Below are positions 3,001-23,488 of a stretch of 58,383 nt of DNA, one piece after another; position 1 is the stretch's first letter, and each line of letters opens with the position of its first letter. Position numbers and translations under genes: made by a program. The notes under the pieces are model-generated. The model had not been told where the DNA came from. It worked only from the letters and a program-made list of their open reading frames with translations, and did not search any database. Source of the stretch: Peptococcaceae bacterium BRH_c8a (GTDB lineage Bacteria; Bacillota; Desulfotomaculia; Desulfotomaculales; Desulfallaceae); assembly GCA_000961575.1 (NCBI GenBank), contig LADP01000017.1:1-58383 (forward strand), given 5' to 3'.

Positions 3001-5013
3001 GTACTCCCGGTCGTCGGGCAGCACCATCAGGGTAGGCTTGTTCAGGTTGTTGTACCGGAACCCGGTGACCCGCTGCAGCGGGTCGGTAATTTGCAGCACG
3101 TTACCCCGGTCGTCATATTCGTAGTCATAGGTGTAGCCCTTCTTGTCGGTGTACGAGGTGACGTTATTGTCATCGTCGTAGGTAAAATGTTCAGTTTGTC
3201 CCAGCGGATCGGTCCGCTTAATCATGCGCAGCTGATCATCATACTGGTTAACGGTGACCCGCTGCAGCTGATCGGTGATGGTGGTGGTTTGGGCAGCTTC
3301 ATTATAGTTAAAGGTATAGATACCGCCCCGGGGGTCGGTTTGCTTGATTACCCGCCCCAGGTCGTCGTATTGGTTTACGTAGCTGCCGTCGCCCCGGGGG
3401 TTATTTAAGGCCGTCATATGGTGTTCGCTGTCGTAATCGTAGGTGATGGTTTCACAATCGGGGCCGGTGAAGGTGGTCAGGTTCAGGTCTTCGTAACCGT
3501 ACTCCACACTTCGCCCGCTCTGGTCGGTAATCTTTTCAATGAAGCCGTCCCGGTTGTAGTCCAGGTGCAGGCTGCCGGAGGCAGTGCTGATTTGCACCAG
3601 CTTCAGGTCATTGTAGGTAAGCTCGGTGTCGTTGCCGTTGGGGTCAGTTATCCGCAGCAAGTAACCGCCACGGTTGAAGGTGTAGGTGGTGCCGTCGGGT
3701 TTTGCTAAGGTGTAGGTGTCGTCATGGTTGCGCGATAGCGTGTTAAACACGCCTTCGGGTGACTTGAAGGTGTTCTGGTCCAGTTCGTAATGCTCCCGGT
3801 GGCCGTCGGCGAATATGACTTCCACATCACCGCCGCGATTAATTAAGAGCCGGTATTCAAAATTATGGTGCCAGTTGGTGCCCAGCCGACCTTCGTAGCT
3901 GTCCAGGCTGTTGTAATACCGGGCGAACCGGATGGGGAAGGCGCCGGATACGATAATATCGGTGTGCTGGTGAATGTAGTTGCCCGTGGCCAGGTTCACG
4001 GGGTCACCGTCGGAGTCGCAGAAGAAAAGTTTTTCTAAACCTAAGCATAATTTCTCCCATAAACTAAGTAATAATTGCATTGGTTCTAAACGCGTATCAT
4101 TGATGGGATTGTGGATTAACAAACGCCAGTAATCTTCAAGGGCGTAGATGTCACTGATGCCGTTATCGTCGGCAATTTTACGCGATTTAGTTGAATCGCC
4201 GTAAAAGTGGCGGGCGATGTTATCCAGGTTCGCCTGAGGCGTGACAATGTATTTTAACAGGTCAAGCTCACCGCTGATGTTCCTTTCTTCTATTTCATAG
4301 TAAATTTCGGTGCCGCCGTCGGGAGTGAGCCGGCTTCTTTCTTCTTCCACGTACTTTTTAGCCGAAATTTTTACCCGGTCAAATTCCCGCAGTTGAATAT
4401 CCAGGGTCCAGGTGCTGCCGGACAGATTGGCTACCCTGATATCACCGTCCACATTAACTCTTACTTCGACAATATTTTCCTCGTCCAGTGGTCCATAAAC
4501 AACGAAGGTGTCTTTTGTTTCATCACCGTACGGTCCTTCGCCCTCCAGGTTGGGGGCGATATTGATGCCGCCGGTAGGGTTGCTGCTGACGATTAAGCTG
4601 CTTATGGATGGGTACATGGAATAGTCGGGCTGTCCCGGCAGGGGTCTGACCACTACCTCGTACACGCCGTCCGGTACGATGCTGCCGCTGTCGTCGGTGC
4701 CGTCCCAGGTTTCCGAGTTCTGGACGTAGCCGCCGGGATAGGTTCTGGCCCCTACCAGGGTGCGCACCAGTTCCCCCCGGGAATTTTTAATTTTTATTGA
4801 GGCGGTATGCTGCAGCTGGAAGTTCCAAAGTATTTTTACGTCGTCCCCGGAGGTGGGGTCGTAAACCGAGGGTTCGAATTTAATGTATTTGGTCGGGGTG
4901 GAATTTGCGTCTTTGGCTCCGGCCAGGCCGGTGGCCAAAATCGCCAGCGTAAGAACCGCCGCCAGAAACAGGCCTAATATCAATAAAGGTAGACGTTGTT
5001 TGATGGATTGCAT
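1..5013 (-). CDS. Giant LysM/Rhs (YD-repeat) surface protein, 3' end outside window
   Basis: Open for 1,671 codons from an ATG at 5013 with an AAGGAGG site to the window edge, with no stop. An N-terminal hydrophobic segment (about residues 8-32) looks like a signal peptide. A FlgD-like Ig segment follows (about 40-130), then a LysM-like segment (about 250-290, containing NLDNIARHFYGDSTK), a DUF6531-like entry domain (about 330-420, NLATGNYIHQHTD) and tens of YD repeats such as YDYDAAGNLLATTDP to the edge. A non-YD acidic linker interrupts the repeats at about residues 1090-1170. Rhs/YD proteins form large shells, often with a variable C-terminal toxin or effector; that end is not visible here. 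It starts 51 bp after the SLH gene and is probably its operon partner under the upstream c-di-GMP riboswitch. Plus-strand ORFs across this gene are shadows. Confidence 0.93.
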   Translation of the reverse strand, partial: MQSIKQRLPLLILGLFLAAVLTLAILATGLAGAKDANSTPTKYIKFEPSVYDPTSGDDVKILWNFQLQHTASIKIKNSRGELVRTLVGARTYPGGYVQNSETWDGTDDSGSIVPDGVYEVVVRPLPGQPDYSMYPSISSLIVSSNPTGGINIAPNLEGEGPYGDETKDTFVVYGPLDEENIVEVRVNVDGDIRVANLSGSTWTLDIQLREFDRVKISAKKYVEEERSRLTPDGGTEIYYEIEERNISGELDLLKYIVTPQANLDNIARHFYGDSTKSRKIADDNGISDIYALEDYWRLLIHNPINDTRLEPMQLLLSLWEKLCLGLEKLFFCDSDGDPVNLATGNYIHQHTDIIVSGAFPIRFARYYNSLDSYEGRLGTNWHHNFEYRLLINRGGDVEVIFADGHREHYELDQNTFKSPEGVFNTLSRNHDDTYTLAKPDGTTYTFNRGGYLLRITDPNGNDTELTYNDLKLVQISTASGSLHLDYNRDGFIEKITDQSGRSVEYGYEDLNLTTFTGPDCETITYDYDSEHHMTALNNPRGDGSYVNQYDDLGRVIKQTDPRGGIYTFNYNEAAQTTTITDQLQRVTVNQYDDQLRMIKRTDPLGQTEHFTYDDDNNVTSYTDKKGYTYDYEYDDRGNVLQITDPLQRVTGFRYNNLNKPTLMVLPDDREYHYDYDAAGNLLATTDPLGRVTEIIYNDRGLVETIKQPDGTALSFDHDAAGNVREMVDALNNTTRFGYDQANRVKSVIDPEGATTGFAYDGNDNTTRVTDALDHSVSYNYDDNGVLKTVTDQEGHTTTYHYNGADQLERIVDPLGNVTRYQYDVRGNVTAMTDANGHRTEYAYDELDRLVAATDPEGHTTGYAYDANDNLVQQTDPRGAVTEFEYDELNRLVSVTDPLDNVTGYAYDLAGRLVTITDPLGHVTSYEYDDADRVVSVANPLGNTEQYSYDEMDRLLTHTLPGGAVWQMEYDPQGNLTGLTDPEGHRQSWRYDKNSRVTRAIDPLGRVTEYDYDSLGQLESITDALGQTQYFEYTPRGQIASVTDPNGHTTGYVYDKLMRLARVTDAAGHDTKYDYDPVGNLTAVHQYRSILLATMASLEEDAATVTMSVYGTSVTEEVYGDDEEASVTASVYGEEASITGIGDETENDDEQASVSQAVYYAPADCLNSDIYHQPTYYTYDGRNLPLTAEDALGNTVRYEYDEAGNLVRVTDQDDFVTGFAYDLNSQLTNIRYDDNRQVAFTYDPRGYMTGFTDWLGDNSFDLDPLGRITRVTDFAGRVQEYTWNATGQKQSQTYPDGSRVSYEYDQLDRLAGVTDAFGRTTSYEYNPAGELVKQLLPGGTKTKYKYDAISQITELSHIDPSGKVTGSYAYTYDPAGNKTAVSKNAFDEDELEETEGNTFAYDALNRLISVREASGEYKNYYYDTLGNRIALIEQEKEYTEAKYYQYNNLNQLTKQYDHDGDVKHYSYDNRGNLTEMRSEGKVFNTYAFDAANQLIEVTNKFGDTTSYTYDGLDNRIQAIIDLNHGAEHNNRPVFPPGPGGPPAFVEELKNKNPGPPSHGGNPKPGWDKQFNRHYMAQHYVVDYTKEYNNLLLSYGEHSQVQRYTYGLNLVSMDFLALDDHDNGWIPSGTNTVYKEQWDSLFYLHDDLGTVTKVVGINGKTSAHYNYDEFGRP

Positions 5014-5063: not shown

Positions 5064-6962
5064 CTAAATTCTCTTTTCCCGTTCCAGCAGCCGGTACAGT
5101 ATTACGGAGGCCTCGGCCCGGGTGGTTTCGGCGCCGGGGTTCAGCCGGTTGTTATAGCCGCTTACCAGGCCCAAACTTACGGCGGTGCTCAGGGCTTCCT
5201 CGGCCCACGGGCTGATTTCGCCCCGGTCGCTAAAGCCGGACAGGTGGTCGTCTCCCGCCACCGTTTCAGCGCCGCTGTAGCGTATCAGCATAGCAGTCAT
5301 TTCTTCCCGGGTGATAGTTTGGCCGGGCATAAATTTGTTGCCGGGGTAGCCGCCCACCCAGCCGTTCTGCCGGGCTGTTTCTATGGCCGCGGCGGCCCAG
5401 TGGTCCGCCGGGACATCGGTGAATCCCGCGCTGTCCCGGGCTTGGGCAGGCGTGCGGCTGCAGTTGGCCAGCAGGGCCACGAATTCAGCCCGGGTAATTT
5501 TTTGTTCGGGCCGGAAGGTGTTATCGTTAAAACCGTTCACTATCCCGTGCGATGCCAGCACTTGTACGTCGCTGCCGCTCCAGTGGCCGGCCAGGTCTTT
5601 GAATGATACCGGTTTAATCAGCACGGCCACCGGGGCAAGGGTTTGTAGCTCTGCAGACAGGGTGTTTTGTTTTTCCCTGGCACCGGGCAGGTATACCCAG
5701 GTGTCCCCCTGCTGTTGATAAAGGGCGGCTTTTCTGTAATCCGCCTGGTCTTCGGGTAATGTAAAGGTTATGGTTACCGTAACCGGTTTTTGGGCGGCGG
5801 TTCCGTCAACCACCGGTGTATATACCGGGGTTACCGGTAGAAATTCGTCAATTTGTGCTTCGTCTTGCCGCAGGGTTAGTTCCACGTCTGTGGGGAAGGT
5901 GTCAGGGGCAAAGTCGAATACCGCCTGCCCGTCGGGCGAGGTGATGTTGTTCTGTTGGGCGGCTTTTAAGGTAACTTCAAATGATATAGAGACGTGGGAG
6001 ATGGTTATGCCGCTGCTGTTTGATGACTCGTTTGGCCTGGCTGGCAGCGGCTGCGTGGTGATATTGCTTCCTTTAACCGTGATGATTTGATTACCTTGCA
6101 GCAGCACTTGGTCCAGGTTTACGCTGCCCAGGTCGAGGGGGGTTTGGGTACCGGTGTCGGTATCCTGCAGCACCAGCCCGCTGTCCGTGGAGATAAGCAG
6201 GTTGCTGCCGGACATGGATACGGGCAGGTGGTCGCCCGCGCCCGAGGTGATGTCTTTTGTTTCACCCGTGGCGGGGTTGTGCAGTTTAACCTGGTAAGAG
6301 CCGTTCTCCTTTTGGGCGTAGGCCACCCGGCCGTTGTCCACCGCCAGCAGGAAGTTGATGTCCCGGCCGGAGGTAACCTGTTTATCCCGGCCGGAGTTGT
6401 AAACGTAAAGGTCGTTGCCGCCGTTGCGGAAGTCGATCCAGGCGGCGGTTTGGCCGTCGAATTTGAGGCCGGTGGGGTTGGTTAGCGTGGAGGTGATTAC
6501 TTCGGTGCTGCCGCCGGAGATATCGTAAAGACAGATGTCCCTTTTACCGAAATCGTAGCCGGTCCAGAGCACTTTGCCGTTCGTTATTTGCGGTTCCTGG
6601 TGGCTGTAGCCGGTGGCGGGGGATATTTTTTGGGTGCTTTGGGTGTTGATATCATACAGGTAAATGCTAAAACCGCCGAGGTCGGAGTCGGGGTCGTCGC
6701 GGTTGTCCTGCCATACTATGTAGTCGTCCCAGATGTCGGGATAGCCCTGAGTGTGGGGGTCGTCGGTGATTCTGGTAATTTCACCGCTGGTGATGTCGTG
6801 CATGAAAATTTCCCAGTTATTCTCGTACCAAGCCATGTAGACCTGCCGGTCGCCGGTAATACTGGTACCTGTTGGAGCAGGGTAGGCGGCGCCGGCCGGG
6901 CCGGCGGGGAATACGAAAAGCAGGGTTATTGCCAGTAACATTGTTAGCAAGATAGTGCGCAT
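5064..6962 (-). CDS. Secreted beta-propeller protein with three C-terminal SLH domains
   Basis: This 632-residue protein has a classic signal peptide (residues 1-26, cut near AGAAYP). Residues ~30-310 hold repeated TolB/WD40-like blades (ITSGEITRITDDPHTQGYPD, WDDYIVWQDNRDD). A beta-rich middle region spans about 315-445. Three S-layer homology domains fill 450-632 (DLAGHWSGSDV, DVPADHWAAAAIETA, SPWAEEALSTA). SLH domains bind secondary wall polymers, so the protein should sit on the cell surface. The start has an AAGGAGGAG site directly after the riboswitch terminator. The Rhs-type gene follows 51 bp downstream, so the two probably act together at the envelope. The ligand or substrate of the propeller cannot be read from sequence. 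Confidence 0.92.
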   Translation of the reverse strand: MRTILLTMLLAITLLFVFPAGPAGAAYPAPTGTSITGDRQVYMAWYENNWEIFMHDITSGEITRITDDPHTQGYPDIWDDYIVWQDNRDDPDSDLGGFSIYLYDINTQSTQKISPATGYSHQEPQITNGKVLWTGYDFGKRDICLYDISGGSTEVITSTLTNPTGLKFDGQTAAWIDFRNGGNDLYVYNSGRDKQVTSGRDINFLLAVDNGRVAYAQKENGSYQVKLHNPATGETKDITSGAGDHLPVSMSGSNLLISTDSGLVLQDTDTGTQTPLDLGSVNLDQVLLQGNQIITVKGSNITTQPLPARPNESSNSSGITISHVSISFEVTLKAAQQNNITSPDGQAVFDFAPDTFPTDVELTLRQDEAQIDEFLPVTPVYTPVVDGTAAQKPVTVTITFTLPEDQADYRKAALYQQQGDTWVYLPGAREKQNTLSAELQTLAPVAVLIKPVSFKDLAGHWSGSDVQVLASHGIVNGFNDNTFRPEQKITRAEFVALLANCSRTPAQARDSAGFTDVPADHWAAAAIETARQNGWVGGYPGNKFMPGQTITREEMTAMLIRYSGAETVAGDDHLSGFSDRGEISPWAEEALSTAVSLGLVSGYNNRLNPGAETTRAEASVILYRLLEREKRI

Positions 6963-7038: not shown

Positions 7039-7066
7039 TGTCTATTGTTTTATGCATGTATCCTTC

Positions 7067-7141
7067 GGTAACCCGGCTGCCGTTGCAGTGCTCCTGCTTT
7101 AGACCCGTGGCTTTGCGTCCCCGTCTTTCGACAGGTTTGCC
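7067..7141 (-). ncRNA. c-di-GMP-I riboswitch (GEMM-I) upstream of the SLH/Rhs operon
   Basis: The minus strand reads GGCAAACC, then a GAAA-type tetraloop hairpin, then GGGGACGCAAAGCC, GGGTCTAAAG and GGCAGCCGGGTTACC. These are the conserved blocks of the class-I c-di-GMP aptamer in the correct order and spacing (75 nt). The ligand follows from the family. The sense of control (on or off) is inferred only from the terminator just downstream. Confidence 0.93.
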
Positions 7142-7192
7142 TTTTTCGAAATACTATTTTTTACTTATTTAGTTACTGTGCCATTATACTAC

Positions 7193-19052: not shown

Positions 19053-19721
19053 ATGCATTTTTACTTAATCTTAGTTTTTAGATTTGCTATAACTACTTCA
19101 GAGAAGCTTTGCGTTCTGCTCAATGCCATTAGTGAAGAGGCCAATATAGACATTGAAATCAAGAAAATGGAATTTCCAGAGCTTTTCCCGGCTTTAAAAG
19201 AGGCTCAAATTGATGGCGCTATTTCAGCTATCACCGTTACGGAAATGAGACAGCAAATTTTTCATTTTTCAGTTCCATACTTTTTATACGGCCAATGTGT
19301 GACTGTGCGTTCGGATAACCAAGATATCAGCAGTTTTAATGACCTGGAAGGTAAAATAATTGGCGTACGCACTGGAACAGTGGCTTATGATGAAGTCATC
19401 AAGCTACCCGATGTCAAGGTTGTCGGGTACGAATCTATGGATGAAGCTTTTCAAGCATTAAAGGATGGAGCTTTGGACGCGATAATATCTGATTTTCCCG
19501 GCACGGCATATTACATCCGGGAGGGTAACAAAAATATTAAAATTGTCGGCGATACAATAATCAATCAACCAATCGCTATCGCTTTTCCCAAAAATAATTC
19601 TCAACTGCCGGACTTCGTTAATGATGCTTTGGCCAAGTTAAAAGAAAGCGGTGAATTTGCCCGGATTTATAAGCACTGGTTTGGGGTTGAACCCCCGCAA
19701 TATACCGGTAGGACGCTTTAG
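19053..19721 (+). pseudogene. 5'-truncated family-3 solute-binding protein
   Basis: Most of a bacterial extracellular solute-binding protein family 3 domain is present: FPELFPALKEAQIDGAISAI, MRQQIFHFSVPYFLYGQC, LEGKIIGVRTGTVAYD, DAIISDFPGTAYYI and LKESGEFARIYKHWFG. The signal peptide and the first ~50 residues, including the ligand-contacting first lobe strand, are missing and replaced by unrelated codons (MHFYLILVF). No ABC permease or ATPase lies beside it. An unusual cytoplasmic protein is possible, but a truncated gene is more likely. Confidence 0.65.
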
Positions 19722-19782: not shown

Positions 19783-19835
19783 AATTGGGGTAGTACCAGC
19801 GTCGTGTCACCATCGACGCTGGTACTACCCCAATT
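19783..19835. terminator. Perfect 22-bp-arm hairpin between convergent genes
   Basis: A perfect 22-bp inverted repeat (arms 19783-19804 and 19814-19835) surrounds a 9-nt loop, TGTCACCAT. It lies between the ends of the plus-strand gene 19721 and the minus-strand gene 19944, so a bidirectional terminator is the simplest reading, although there is no long T run. Confidence 0.65.
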
Positions 19836-19943: not shown

Positions 19944-20783
19944 TTACGAATCAACGCATAACAAGTATTCCTTACCTATCCTTTTTGCTTTTGTTGAAGC
20001 AAGACTGGCCTTATTGATGAGATTCTCAATTACTTTATTAGCGCTTTTTCGCGCGTGTTTTCTTTGACCGCCACAAACTCCAGCTGAAATGGAAAGTGGC
20101 TTGCCCATCTCAATACTCTCTTTTTTTACCGCCGCAACAACGCTTTGTACCAACTTACTTGCGTCATTTACTTTTCTTAATGACACAATTACAAATTCAT
20201 CCCCGCCATACCGACACAAAAAGTCGCAATCATTATTTATATGCTTTGATATAATCTCCGCAATGTTTTTTATGCATTTATCCCCATAAACGTGGCCATA
20301 TTCCTTGTTTATGTGGCCAAAGTTATTGATATCAAACAGTATCACTGAAATTTCATGACCTTCTGTTATCAACCTGTTGGCCAACTGGTAAATGTAAATG
20401 GAATTATGTATGCTAGTTAACGGGTCATACTGATTTCCCATATATTTTGTAACGATTGACTTTGTTAACAATCCGACTAGGTGACCTTTATTGACCACAG
20501 GAAGCCTTTTGATGTTATACTTAGTCATTTGGGTAACCACATCCCAAATGATATCAGCAGGTGAGCAGTAAATTACTTTTTTAGTCATTGAATCTGCAAC
20601 AAGTCGGTTAGGGTGACTGAAGTAAATATCACTTGACGTTATAATCCCGACCAGTTTTTCATTATCAATGACAGGCAGCCCACCAAACCCGAGTTTTTTC
20701 ATGTAGCTGGCCGCCTGAAAAACACTTTTTTCAGTGCTGATGGTGTGAACAGGGCTTGACATTATGTCCTGTACCTCAAACAT
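19944..20783 (-). CDS. CBS-pair/GGDEF protein, predicted diguanylate cyclase
   Basis: 279 residues. Two CBS motifs occupy residues 1-120 (MSSPVHTISTEKSVFQAASY, AADSMTKKV-like second half) and a GGDEF domain residues ~125-275, with the intact active-site loop RYGGDEF and the metal-binding FDINNFGHIN. The product would make c-di-GMP from GTP. CBS pairs usually sense adenine nucleotides, so activity may follow energy state. No RxxD inhibitory site is seen five residues before GGDEF. The ATG follows the stop of the upstream gene without any gap. It is the third gene of a riboswitch-headed operon. Confidence 0.9.
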   Translation of the reverse strand: MFEVQDIMSSPVHTISTEKSVFQAASYMKKLGFGGLPVIDNEKLVGIITSSDIYFSHPNRLVADSMTKKVIYCSPADIIWDVVTQMTKYNIKRLPVVNKGHLVGLLTKSIVTKYMGNQYDPLTSIHNSIYIYQLANRLITEGHEISVILFDINNFGHINKEYGHVYGDKCIKNIAEIISKHINNDCDFLCRYGGDEFVIVSLRKVNDASKLVQSVVAAVKKESIEMGKPLSISAGVCGGQRKHARKSANKVIENLINKASLASTKAKRIGKEYLLCVDS

Positions 20784-21140
20784 TTAAATATCAACTTCCC
20801 TGGTAATTGAAATGGTAATGCTGAGTTTGGCCTTTATAAGGGACTTCTCACAAGTAAACATATTCACTTCTTCCAATATCATATCAACAAGCCTTTCACG
20901 CTTTACCCAGTTAAATAGCTCGACCTTTACAGCTATAGCCTCTATGTGTCCATTTTCCATTTCTATTACCTCATACTGACCGGGTGCGAGAGCATCAACC
21001 ATTCTTCGCACAGCTTCCGGGCCTATGGCAGCGCGCCTGCCAATAAGTAAAACGTCCTGCATCGGTGGAAGATCAAAATCGGAAAAACGTATGTTTATGT
21101 CCGCTTTTCTACTCCCCCGGTCTTCGATGATACTATTCAT
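20784..21140 (-). CDS. Hypothetical protein between HD-GYP and GGDEF genes
   Basis: 118 residues from ATG 21140 (GAGGG eight bases upstream), chosen over an in-frame ATG at 21170 inside the previous gene. It is soluble, with no cysteines of note and a mixed alpha/beta composition (RFSDFDLPPMQDVLLIGRR, GPEAVRRMVDALAPGQYEVI). I do not recognise a family. Its stop abuts the GGDEF start (TAA-ATG), and it starts 17 bp after the HD gene, so it must be made together with two c-di-GMP enzymes. Confidence 0.75.
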   Translation of the reverse strand: MNSIIEDRGSRKADINIRFSDFDLPPMQDVLLIGRRAAIGPEAVRRMVDALAPGQYEVIEMENGHIEAIAVKVELFNWVKRERLVDMILEEVNMFTCEKSLIKAKLSITISITREVDI

Positions 21141-21156
21141 ATCGCATACCCTCTTT

Positions 21157-21765
21157 TCAAAGCGGGACATTAAAAACCTGAAACTTTTTAATTTTACTAT
21201 GGGGCAAAATCGAACCTTTCATATGTATCATCAAATAATCCTCAAAAGCTTCAACAAACTGGGGAGCAAACTGGGTACCTTTGTTTAGGTTTAATTCAGT
21301 GAGAGCATCAAACATTGTCTTTTTCTTTTGATATGACCTGAGACTGGTCATCGCGTCAAAAGCATCAGCAATTGTTATAATACTCGCCAGCTCCGGTATT
21401 CCATCGCCGGATAGCCCCTCATAACCTTGACCGTCCCATCGTTCATGATGATACAGTATAAGGGGTAGGTACTTCCCTACTCCCTCAATATGTTCGAGCA
21501 TTTTTTTCCCCAGAGTCGTATGGGTCTTAATTAAACGAAATTCACTGTCAGTTAATCTGTCAGTCTTGTTAAGTGTTCTTTCGTCAATACAACTTTTCCC
21601 TATATCATGTAGCAAAGCCCCGTAACCCAGTGTTTTAATCTTTTGTTGGCTTAAACCGGCATGTTGGGCAATTTTTATGGATATACTACAAACATTACAT
21701 GAATGTGTATATAAGTCATCGCTAACCCCACTTAATATGATGCCGACAAGTTTCTCAATGCGCAA
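21157..21765 (-). CDS. HD-GYP-like phosphodiesterase domain protein
   Basis: 202 residues consisting of an HD-GYP-type domain alone, with no sensor domain. Visible are LLHDIGK, KTHTTLGKKMLEHI, YHHERWDGQGYEGLSGDG and IADAFDAMTSLRSY. Metal ligands H/HD/H/HH/D are present. The diagnostic GYP triad reads GYE, so c-di-GMP hydrolysis is likely but not certain. The start is TTG 21765 after GGGGGT. First gene of a c-di-GMP riboswitch operon that also encodes a GGDEF protein, so the operon holds a synthesis and a degradation candidate. Confidence 0.85.
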   Translation of the reverse strand: MRIEKLVGIILSGVSDDLYTHSCNVCSISIKIAQHAGLSQQKIKTLGYGALLHDIGKSCIDERTLNKTDRLTDSEFRLIKTHTTLGKKMLEHIEGVGKYLPLILYHHERWDGQGYEGLSGDGIPELASIITIADAFDAMTSLRSYQKKKTMFDALTELNLNKGTQFAPQFVEAFEDYLMIHMKGSILPHSKIKKFQVFNVPL

Positions 21766-21840
21766 CTTAACTGTACCCCCATTAAATTCAAGGCATTCTT
21801 TGACATCGAAAGGGGGTGTGGTAGGAAAATAAAAAACACT

Positions 21841-21924
21841 GTTTCCCCCGCAGCCTGGCGATCATGCACAAAAAGTGCCTTAGACCCATGGCTTTGCGCC
21901 CTACTCTTTCGAAGTAGTTTGCCC
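21841..21924 (-). ncRNA. c-di-GMP-I riboswitch upstream of the HD-GYP/GGDEF operon
   Basis: The minus strand gives GGGCAAACTACTTCGAAAGA (P1 and tetraloop), GTAGGGCGCAAAGCC, GGGTCTAAGG and, 3', GCCAGGCTGCGGGGG. The order matches GEMM-I. It differs from consensus in GGGCGC for GGACGC and in the last P1 strand, so it is a slightly divergent member. No clear terminator follows; control might be at the ribosome site. Confidence 0.85.
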
Positions 21925-21969
21925 TATAGAAACAGATTGTTTAAAAATATGACAAAAAACAACAACAAT

Positions 21970-21999
21970 ATTATACAACTATGTGGATACATTAATCAA
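21970..21999 (-). promoter_or_regulatory. Probable sigma-A promoter of the HD-GYP/GGDEF operon
   Basis: Minus strand TTGATT, an 18-bp spacer and TATAAT, about 45 nt before the aptamer. The divergent regulator gene (22053) starts close by, so promoter regions may overlap. Confidence 0.55.
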
Positions 22000-22052: not shown

Positions 22053-22376
22053 ATGTTAAAAGCAATACTTGGTAAAAATATTCGTTATATCAGGGAGTCG
22101 AAAGGGGTTTCCCAAAAGGATATGGCCTTACTGGCCGGATTTACACCCGCGTATCTGGGATATCTAGAAAGAGGACAAAAAAACCCATCTGTCGATTTGG
22201 TGCAAAAGATAGCCGCCGCGCTCGATACTGAAGCATATAAATTGTTTTTAATAAAAAGCGATATACCAACTGAATTAACACAATTGATTCACTCAATATG
22301 GGATTTGGGGCCAGAGCATACGGAGTTTATAACTACCGTAATAAAAGCCTACGTAAAAACAAAAAAAAATTGCTAA
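22053..22376 (+). CDS. XRE-family transcriptional regulator
   Basis: 107 residues. Residues ~8-62 form a helix-turn-helix of the XRE type (GKNIRYIRESKGVSQKDMAL, GYLERGQKNPSVDLVQKIAA). The C-terminal ~40 residues are a small helical part, probably for dimerisation. It is divergent from the riboswitch-controlled HD-GYP operon and shares an intergenic region with it, so autoregulation or control of that operon is plausible but untested. Confidence 0.88.
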   Translation: MLKAILGKNIRYIRESKGVSQKDMALLAGFTPAYLGYLERGQKNPSVDLVQKIAAALDTEAYKLFLIKSDIPTELTQLIHSIWDLGPEHTEFITTVIKAYVKTKKNC

Positions 22377-22945: not shown

Positions 22946-23024
22946 TGAAGAAAGATAATACTTGGAAGCCGAAATACAATAGCTCCTTCTTAACAGATTA
23001 ATATGAACTGTTTAAGTAAAAAAA

Positions 23025-23100
23025 TCGGGCAAACCGGTCGAAAGACCGGGACGCAAAGCTATGGGCCTAAAGCTTTTAAGCTATGGCTGCCAGGTTGCTT
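23025..23100 (+). ncRNA. c-di-GMP-I riboswitch upstream of a ComFB-family gene
   Basis: The plus strand reads CGGGCAAACCGG, a CGAAAG tetraloop hairpin, CCGGGACGCAAAGCT, ATGGGCCTAAAG and GGCTGCCAGGTTGCT. This has all GEMM-I blocks in order and a well-paired P1 (GGCAA/UUGCU). Confidence 0.92.
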
Positions 23101-23126
23101 ATATAATGAACTAATGGATTATTAAG

Positions 23127-23157
23127 CGGCCTATGGTTACATGGCCGTTTTCTTTTT
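23127..23157 (+). terminator. Terminator of the third c-di-GMP riboswitch
   Basis: CGGCC/GGCCG with extra paired bases and a short loop, followed by TTTTCTTTTTT, placed between the aptamer and the ComFB-type gene. Confidence 0.8.
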
Positions 23158-23194
23158 TAATAATAAACAATTATTCAGAAAAGAGGTCTCTATT

Positions 23195-23488
23195 ATGGTC
23201 GTTAATTATGTAGAAATAGCAGTTAAAGAAATAATGGAAAAGCTAATTGAGGATTATGGGTACTGTAAGTGTGAAATATGTAAGGCCAGGGCGCTTGCAA
23301 TGACTTTAAATGATATTGAACCTCAATATGTTTTAACAGATGCTGAGTTTTTGGCGGCTAAAGCAAGTTTTGTTAGGCCGGACAATTATGCAAAACTGTT
23401 ATCAATTACAATGGATTCATTACGCAAGGTTAGTGAAAGTATTAATCACGACATCCAGCTTATGGCAATGAAAAATATTGCTGTATAA
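23195..23488 (+). CDS. ComFB-family protein, candidate c-di-GMP receptor
   Basis: 97 residues from ATG 23195 (AGAGG nine bases upstream); an upstream in-frame ATG at 23141 lies inside the riboswitch terminator and is rejected. The sequence has the ComFB hallmarks: NYVEIAVKEIMEKLIEDYG, then CKCEICKARALAMTLNDIEP with clustered cysteines, then PQYVLTD. Named for a late competence gene of Bacillus; cyanobacterial members are reported as c-di-GMP receptors. Being itself behind a c-di-GMP riboswitch suggests a receptor whose level follows its ligand. No competence genes are nearby. Confidence 0.88.
   Translation: MVVNYVEIAVKEIMEKLIEDYGYCKCEICKARALAMTLNDIEPQYVLTDAEFLAAKASFVRPDNYAKLLSITMDSLRKVSESINHDIQLMAMKNIAV

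Follow-up and report, generated by a model that had tools for sequence, protein, structure and literature searches.

A c-di-GMP-I aptamer before a conserved operon of HD-domain, uncharacterised and CBS-GGDEF genes, and its predicted action as a translational OFF switch

We define "the window" as the whole stretch of DNA that was analysed, 58,383 nucleotides in length, and refer to the middle gene of the operon described here as "MID". The minus strand of the window carries an aptamer of the c-di-GMP-I family and, close-packed behind it on the same strand, the genes for an HD-domain protein, for MID and for a protein with two CBS domains and a GGDEF domain ("CBS-GGDEF"). The features of the locus, listed in the direction in which the operon is read, are as follows.

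22053-22376, plus strand: gene for an Xre-type HTH protein, 107 aa, read divergently (Pfam HTH_3, E 3.3e-14)
21970-21999, minus strand: promoter-like TTGATT-18-TATAAT (10 of 12 consensus positions)
21846-21933, minus strand: c-di-GMP-I (GEMM-I) aptamer (RF01051, 67.3 bits against a cutoff of 35)
21812-21817, minus strand: ACCCCC tract, predicted anti-Shine-Dalgarno arm (6 bp with GGGGGT)
21806-21812, minus strand: CTTTCGA, 7 bp of complement to TCGAAAG of an aptamer hairpin
21789-21795, minus strand: TGCCTTG, 7 bp of complement (with G-T) to TAGGGCA of the aptamer junction
21775-21780, minus strand: GGGGGT, predicted Shine-Dalgarno of the HD gene, 9 nt before TTG, read from the sequence
21157-21765, minus strand: gene for the HD-domain protein, 202 aa, HD-GYP-like, a predicted cyclic-dinucleotide phosphodiesterase (Pfam HD_5, E 1.1e-27)
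20784-21140, minus strand: MID gene, 118 aa, conserved uncharacterised family (25-row alignment, 20 invariant columns)
19944-20783, minus strand: CBS-CBS-GGDEF gene, 279 aa (Pfam CBS, 6.4e-26; GGDEF, 1.1e-25)
19783-19835, no strand assigned: long inverted repeat, possible two-way terminator, between the operon and the convergent gene 19053-19721

The HD gene starts at a TTG codon (21763-21765), MID follows it after 16 bp, and CBS-GGDEF follows MID after 0 bp. The initial annotation had described a GEMM-I aptamer at the head of a close-packed operon of HD, unknown and CBS-GGDEF genes, and the score of the aptamer, the common strand and the conserved gene order confirm that observation. Its 0 bp gap between MID and CBS-GGDEF agrees with our measurement, its gap of 17 bp between HD and MID is corrected to 16 bp, and the word "divergent", if it referred to the orientation of the aptamer, belongs instead to the Xre-type gene, the aptamer being on the operon's own strand. 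The length of 118 residues that it gave for the middle protein was retained in preference to the 128 aa of the mechanical open reading frame list, which starts MID further upstream, since the closest relative carries a TAA stop within the added stretch. The inverted repeat beyond the operon is 89% identical to its own reverse complement and is present as a single copy in the genome. The convergent gene at 19053-19721 encodes a solute-binding protein (SBP_bac_3), and the match begins at profile position 28, so the N-terminal part may be missing.

The initial annotation had placed the aptamer at 21835-21930; the covariance search put the RF01051 match at 21846-21933 on the minus strand, and this match covers the full model (positions 1-87) with an expect value of 4.6e-11 (gathering score 35). 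By its sequence the aptamer is an ordinary member of the GEMM-I family, and the leader RNA probably binds c-di-GMP. Promoter-like sites at this locus do not exceed the number in shuffled sequence (13 found, 14.0 expected), but in the leaders of relatives a TATAAT-like box can be made out by eye about as far upstream of the aptamer as it is here. No terminator-like site was found on the minus strand between the aptamer and the HD gene. A T-rich run lies 3' of the aptamer in the window locus; the combination of P1 with this run was considered as a terminator and rejected because the run is absent from loci L022-L026.

The HD protein retains the metal-binding residues H, HD, H, HH and D in all 17 HD rows of the alignment. 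In the GYP motif GY is kept but Pro is absent in 17 of 17 rows, with a one-residue gap at this site relative to solved HD-GYP enzymes. The label "HD-GYP-like" in the initial annotation therefore suits the metal ligands, but the missing Pro keeps us from calling the protein a canonical HD-GYP. Among solved proteins the closest in sequence is a 3'3'-cGAMP phosphodiesterase, and c-di-GMP phosphodiesterases come next. The HD protein is accordingly a predicted phosphodiesterase, with c-di-GMP and cGAMP as candidate substrates.

All 39 CBS-GGDEF rows retain the [GA]GDEF motif, and 36 of the 39 retain the Asp of GHxxGD. The signature DxDxFKxxND is broken in two places in all 39 rows, which show FG at the FK position and Lys in place of the ND Asp; the five solved relatives among the matches listed, three of which are constructs of a single protein, carry FK and ND there. 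The signature Lys (FK) of GGDEF domains has a role in phosphate binding. The earlier designation of this protein as a cyclase calls for caution, given the Gly that replaces the signature Lys. Cyclase activity can be predicted from the domain, and the two replacements, invariant as they are, mean that the protein may not be a cyclase. Accordingly we weigh a second reading, possible though in our estimate somewhat short of probable, by which CBS-GGDEF is a nucleotide sensor or the maker of another product and MID its partner or receptor, so that the operon would report c-di-GMP and not make it. The altered signature points in this direction, as does the lockstep occurrence of MID and CBS-GGDEF described below, but the retained [GA]GDEF motif and GHxxGD Asp are what would be expected of GTP-binding, possibly active domains.

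The initial view that the middle protein belongs to no known family held: the window MID has no Pfam match and no NCBIfam family was found for MID, while two of the 25 members gave one chance-level Pfam match each (E 0.11 and 0.2). A sequence search of the PDB with MID yielded no credible match (best E 0.18). The AlphaFold model, of moderate confidence (pLDDT 71, pTM 0.62), has the order strand-helix-strand-strand-helix-helix-strand. With this model the best Foldseek match was to RRM-type proteins (E 0.12), and the best VIA match had a Z of 3.2, with the PII-like proteins PstA, GlnK and SbtB at Z 2.6-2.9. These matches suggest a ferredoxin-like arrangement, no more; naming MID by its fold, as RRM-type or as PII-like/ACT-like, was rejected.

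Relatives of MID are widespread: they occur in 11 of 16 genomes of the family, at 28 loci of the genome collection and in 53 of 113 genomes of the class, the genome of the window counted. The 53 class genomes hold 56 matches, and neighbours were examined for those with assigned loci. After removal of duplicates (L028=L018, L029=L019, L030=L020, L055=L027, L056=L031, L057=L032, L059=L033, L068=L038 and L075=L041; L012 and L017 are the window itself), 50 distinct loci, window included, were examined. At 48 of the 49 loci that could be evaluated, MID is followed on its own strand by CBS-GGDEF. The exception, L072, has MID without CBS-GGDEF, and L027 was omitted from the 49 because its contig ends inside MID. 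MID may be a dedicated partner of CBS-GGDEF; the initial annotation had suggested that it may be an adaptor.

The upstream part of the operon is less widely distributed. HD lies directly 5' of MID in 17 of the 50 distinct loci, and the order is aptamer, HD, MID, CBS-GGDEF in these 17, the contig of L027 ending inside MID. Every HD locus has a GEMM-class aptamer upstream of HD on the same strand, against 2 of the 33 that lack HD, namely L065 and L070, where an RF01051 aptamer precedes MID; Fisher's test gives p = 1.7e-11 for this association, computed on rows that share ancestry and are not independent. We define "HD absent" as no tblastn match to the window HD directly upstream on the same strand, a definition by which an unrelated HD could be missed. 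Sixteen of the 17 aptamers belong to RF01051 and one, at L061, to RF03167; L061 is also the only HD locus that does not have the divergent Xre-type gene upstream (16 of 17). Named isolates with the operon include Desulfoscipio geothermicus DSM 3669 and Desulfocucumis palustris NAW-5. When 13 loci were compared for further common neighbours, no gene apart from HD and Xre, which belong to the HD clade, was shared by more than a pair of loci. Two relatives have features of their own: L037, which is without HD, carries a c-di-GMP-II-GAG riboswitch at 3210-3295, just 3' of CBS-GGDEF on the same strand, and L035 has at 1779-2135 a second, diverged MID gene that adjoins the MID-CBS/GGDEF pair and is read in the opposite direction.

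The 33 distinct loci with MID and no HD lend some weight to a reading in which the riboswitch acts on HD only, and MID and CBS-GGDEF form an independent downstream unit with its own promoter. A promoter-like match at 21132-21160 on the minus strand would fit such a unit, matches of this kind being at chance level. We regard this reading as quite improbable, given the common strand and 16 bp gap between HD and MID in the window, the position of HD directly 5' of MID in 17 loci, and the aptamers that stand before MID without any HD in L065 and L070.

In a phylogenetic tree of 48 MID plus CBS-GGDEF rows, 17 of 18 aptamer rows fall on one side of a branch with support of 99/97, and L061 is placed among the aptamer-less rows. 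In the HD tree the 17 leader HDs form one group (96/94) versus seven other HD domains, and HD therefore need not have come twice from different stocks. Both trees were built from best-HSP fragments with midpoint rooting. This can be read simply as a single main gain, with HD lost from L065 and L070 and a separate assembly or transfer at L061. The aptamer-HD-Xre cassette looks to have been added upstream of an older MID-CBS/GGDEF pair.

To describe the expression platform we compared the leaders of 16 loci (L061, L065 and L070 were excluded from the first pairing test and the access test). All 16 leaders carry, between the aptamer and HD, a pyrimidine tract able to pair with the Shine-Dalgarno. 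The arms of this hairpin vary in matched fashion among loci (CCCCC/GGGGG, CCCTCC/GGAGGG, CCTACTC/GAGTAGG, CCCTTTCC/GGAAAGGG), as listed by a script locus by locus, without pair-counting controls; the listing was used because a MAFFT alignment of whole leaders misaligned the platform. In most of the 16 leaders the tract and loop also carry segments complementary to the 5' half of the aptamer, and the two pairings, of the tract with the Shine-Dalgarno and with the aptamer 5' half, would compete for one stretch.

Several comparisons with shuffled sequences bear on these pairings. At 15 of the 16 loci, pairing between the aptamer 5' half and the platform exceeded that of dinucleotide shuffles, of which no more than 17 in 500 equalled it, the exception being L020 (69 of 500); for the combined pairing of the window locus the number was 7 of 500. 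Taken by itself, the Shine-Dalgarno hairpin passed a shuffle cut of 5% at just 4 of the 16 loci, the ACCCCC/GGGGGT helix of the window alone is within the shuffle range (65 of 500), and the complete leader of the window does not fold better than its shuffles do (z -0.51). When the sequences were cut differently, 15 of the 19 aptamers of the operon passed with no more than 11 of 500, L020, L061 and L066 failed, and L021 was an artefact; among control aptamers of the same genome 2 of 12 reached 15 of 500 or fewer. The pairing of the operon aptamers is stronger than that of these 12 other aptamers (Mann-Whitney p = 6e-4), a control set that excludes L004, a near copy of L003, and L015 and L016, which score just above the cutoff. 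Loci L020, L061 and L066 were kept in all counts despite failing one or both tests.

Folding calculations used a thermodynamic model that includes neither cotranscriptional folding nor ligand energy. Enforcing the aptamer pairs cost the Shine-Dalgarno some 0.2 or more of its access at 11 of the 16 loci and left access nearly unchanged in the window locus, L020, L021, L025 and L058; an earlier test with fewer aptamer pairs, in which two junction pairs were not enforced, gave a drop in 10 of 16. No locus of the 16 showed a clear gain in access (largest rise 0.01). The switch is predicted from these models to be translational and OFF. An ON switch, or action on transcription, would mean that c-di-GMP raises the operon, with more phosphodiesterase at high c-di-GMP and negative feedback by breakdown. 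This we consider unlikely. Near-identical aptamers are known in ON and OFF forms (PMC9262584), the folding model fails to separate two states in 5 of 16 loci, window included, and the window has its T-rich run 3' of the aptamer; but that run is missing from L022-L026, the minus strand from aptamer to HD has no terminator-like site, and enforcing the aptamer never clearly raises access.

Our preferred reading, to which we incline with some reserve, is a self-regulated c-di-GMP turnover operon with a translational OFF riboswitch. The parts of the operon, their order and conservation, and the complementarities are observed; the OFF direction and the coupling are inferred. When c-di-GMP is absent, the 5' half of the aptamer would pair with the left arm and loop of the downstream hairpin, leaving the HD Shine-Dalgarno open, and HD, MID and CBS-GGDEF would be produced. 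When c-di-GMP is bound, the aptamer would retain its 5' half, and the freed C-tract would pair with the Shine-Dalgarno. Translation of HD would then drop, and that of MID and CBS-GGDEF with it, through coupling or polarity.

The initial annotation had proposed feedback written at the RNA level, the ligand controlling the genes for its own synthesis and breakdown. That interpretation is partly supported: the aptamer does stand before turnover-type genes, and the evidence changes the view to a translational OFF switch, by which cyclase and phosphodiesterase would fall together at high c-di-GMP. Less cyclase would be negative feedback and less phosphodiesterase positive feedback; the overall sign would be set by whichever activity proves real and by regulation acting through CBS and MID.

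A broader reading, which we offer tentatively and would not call probable, is that MID and the invariant-FG CBS-GGDEF constitute a cyclic-nucleotide signalling unit of two proteins, so far undescribed and belonging to a single large lineage of Bacillota, an enzyme or sensor with its near-obligate partner. A cassette of c-di-GMP riboswitch and HD phosphodiesterase would have been joined onto it, perhaps repeatedly, once in the main clade together with the Xre regulator and once in L061 with another GEMM subclass, closing an RNA-level feedback on signal turnover.

The window contains three c-di-GMP-I aptamers, and RF01051 matches 16 times in the genome, in two cases barely exceeding the cutoff. 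For four of the 16, the first long reading frame downstream, a putative target, encodes GGDEF and/or HD domains: in the operon described here, in the GGDEF-HD sensor genes at L076 and L077, and in the gene at L078 for a GGDEF protein of membrane type. Other aptamers with an identified downstream gene precede one for a T2SSE ATPase with an MshEN domain, one for a chemotaxis receptor and, by eye, one for a FlgB-like protein. The top-scoring aptamer of the genome (90.7 bits; window 7064-7151) lies before a gene at 5064-6962 for 632 residues with three S-layer homology domains. At 160683-160935 of contig C44 (L002/L009), tandem c-di-GMP-I aptamers, each followed by what looks by eye like a hairpin with a T-run, precede a gene for a secreted-looking protein. 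In the region 23018-23488 of the window another c-di-GMP-I aptamer (81.4 bits) precedes a ComFB-family gene, and contig C39 carries a second copy (L004), 95.9% identical over 803 bp. ComFB reportedly acts as a receptor for c-di-AMP (PMC12313861), and a literature search found no report joining ComFB, c-di-GMP and a riboswitch.

According to a review, c-di-GMP riboswitches, unlike most, rarely control genes of ligand metabolism (PMC6366702). The operon is a conserved instance of this wiring, a c-di-GMP riboswitch before turnover-type genes of its own signal; through it, feedback by RNA on a second messenger, whether homeostatic or bistable, becomes open to experiment, and a protein family not yet studied comes to light together with the GGDEF subfamily of unusual signature to which it is linked. 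We found no description of the operon among the matches listed in the literature (titles and starts of abstracts, with subscription papers mostly outside the search). As far as this search shows, the conserved wiring to turnover genes, the platform predicted to compete with the aptamer 5' half, and the MID family are new.

Comparison with known systems places the operon among several partial counterparts. Both ON and OFF forms of c-di-GMP-I riboswitches are known, and Cd1 of Clostridioides difficile, also c-di-GMP-I, is an OFF switch (PMC6366702, PMC9262584). Cd1 and the riboswitch described here share the RF01051 family and OFF action, the latter predicted in our case. Cd1 acts by transcription termination before flagellar genes, whereas here no terminator is seen, the genes are of turnover type, the platform is predicted to mask the Shine-Dalgarno, and the competing strand would be the 5' half of the aptamer. 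In Vc2-type translational c-di-GMP riboswitches the ribosome-binding site is masked away from the aptamer. Masking of the ribosome-binding site, predicted here, is common to both, while genes and platform sequence differ. Geobacter reportedly has cGAMP signalling with Hypr GGDEF enzymes and GEMM-Ib riboswitches (PMC6456294), and as here a GGDEF protein and a GEMM-class RNA belong to one network. All leaders described here have G at the position that we take to be decisive for c-di-GMP. Hypr enzymes have the Asp of GHxxGD changed, whereas CBS-GGDEF retains it in 36 of 39 rows. In Xanthomonas, the HD-GYP protein RpfG forms a complex with a GGDEF protein and a PilZ adaptor. Both sets combine a protein of HD-GYP type with one of GGDEF type and a third, small one; unlike the RpfG complex, the set described here has a MID without PilZ match and an HD protein without the GYP Pro, and is encoded in one operon behind a riboswitch.
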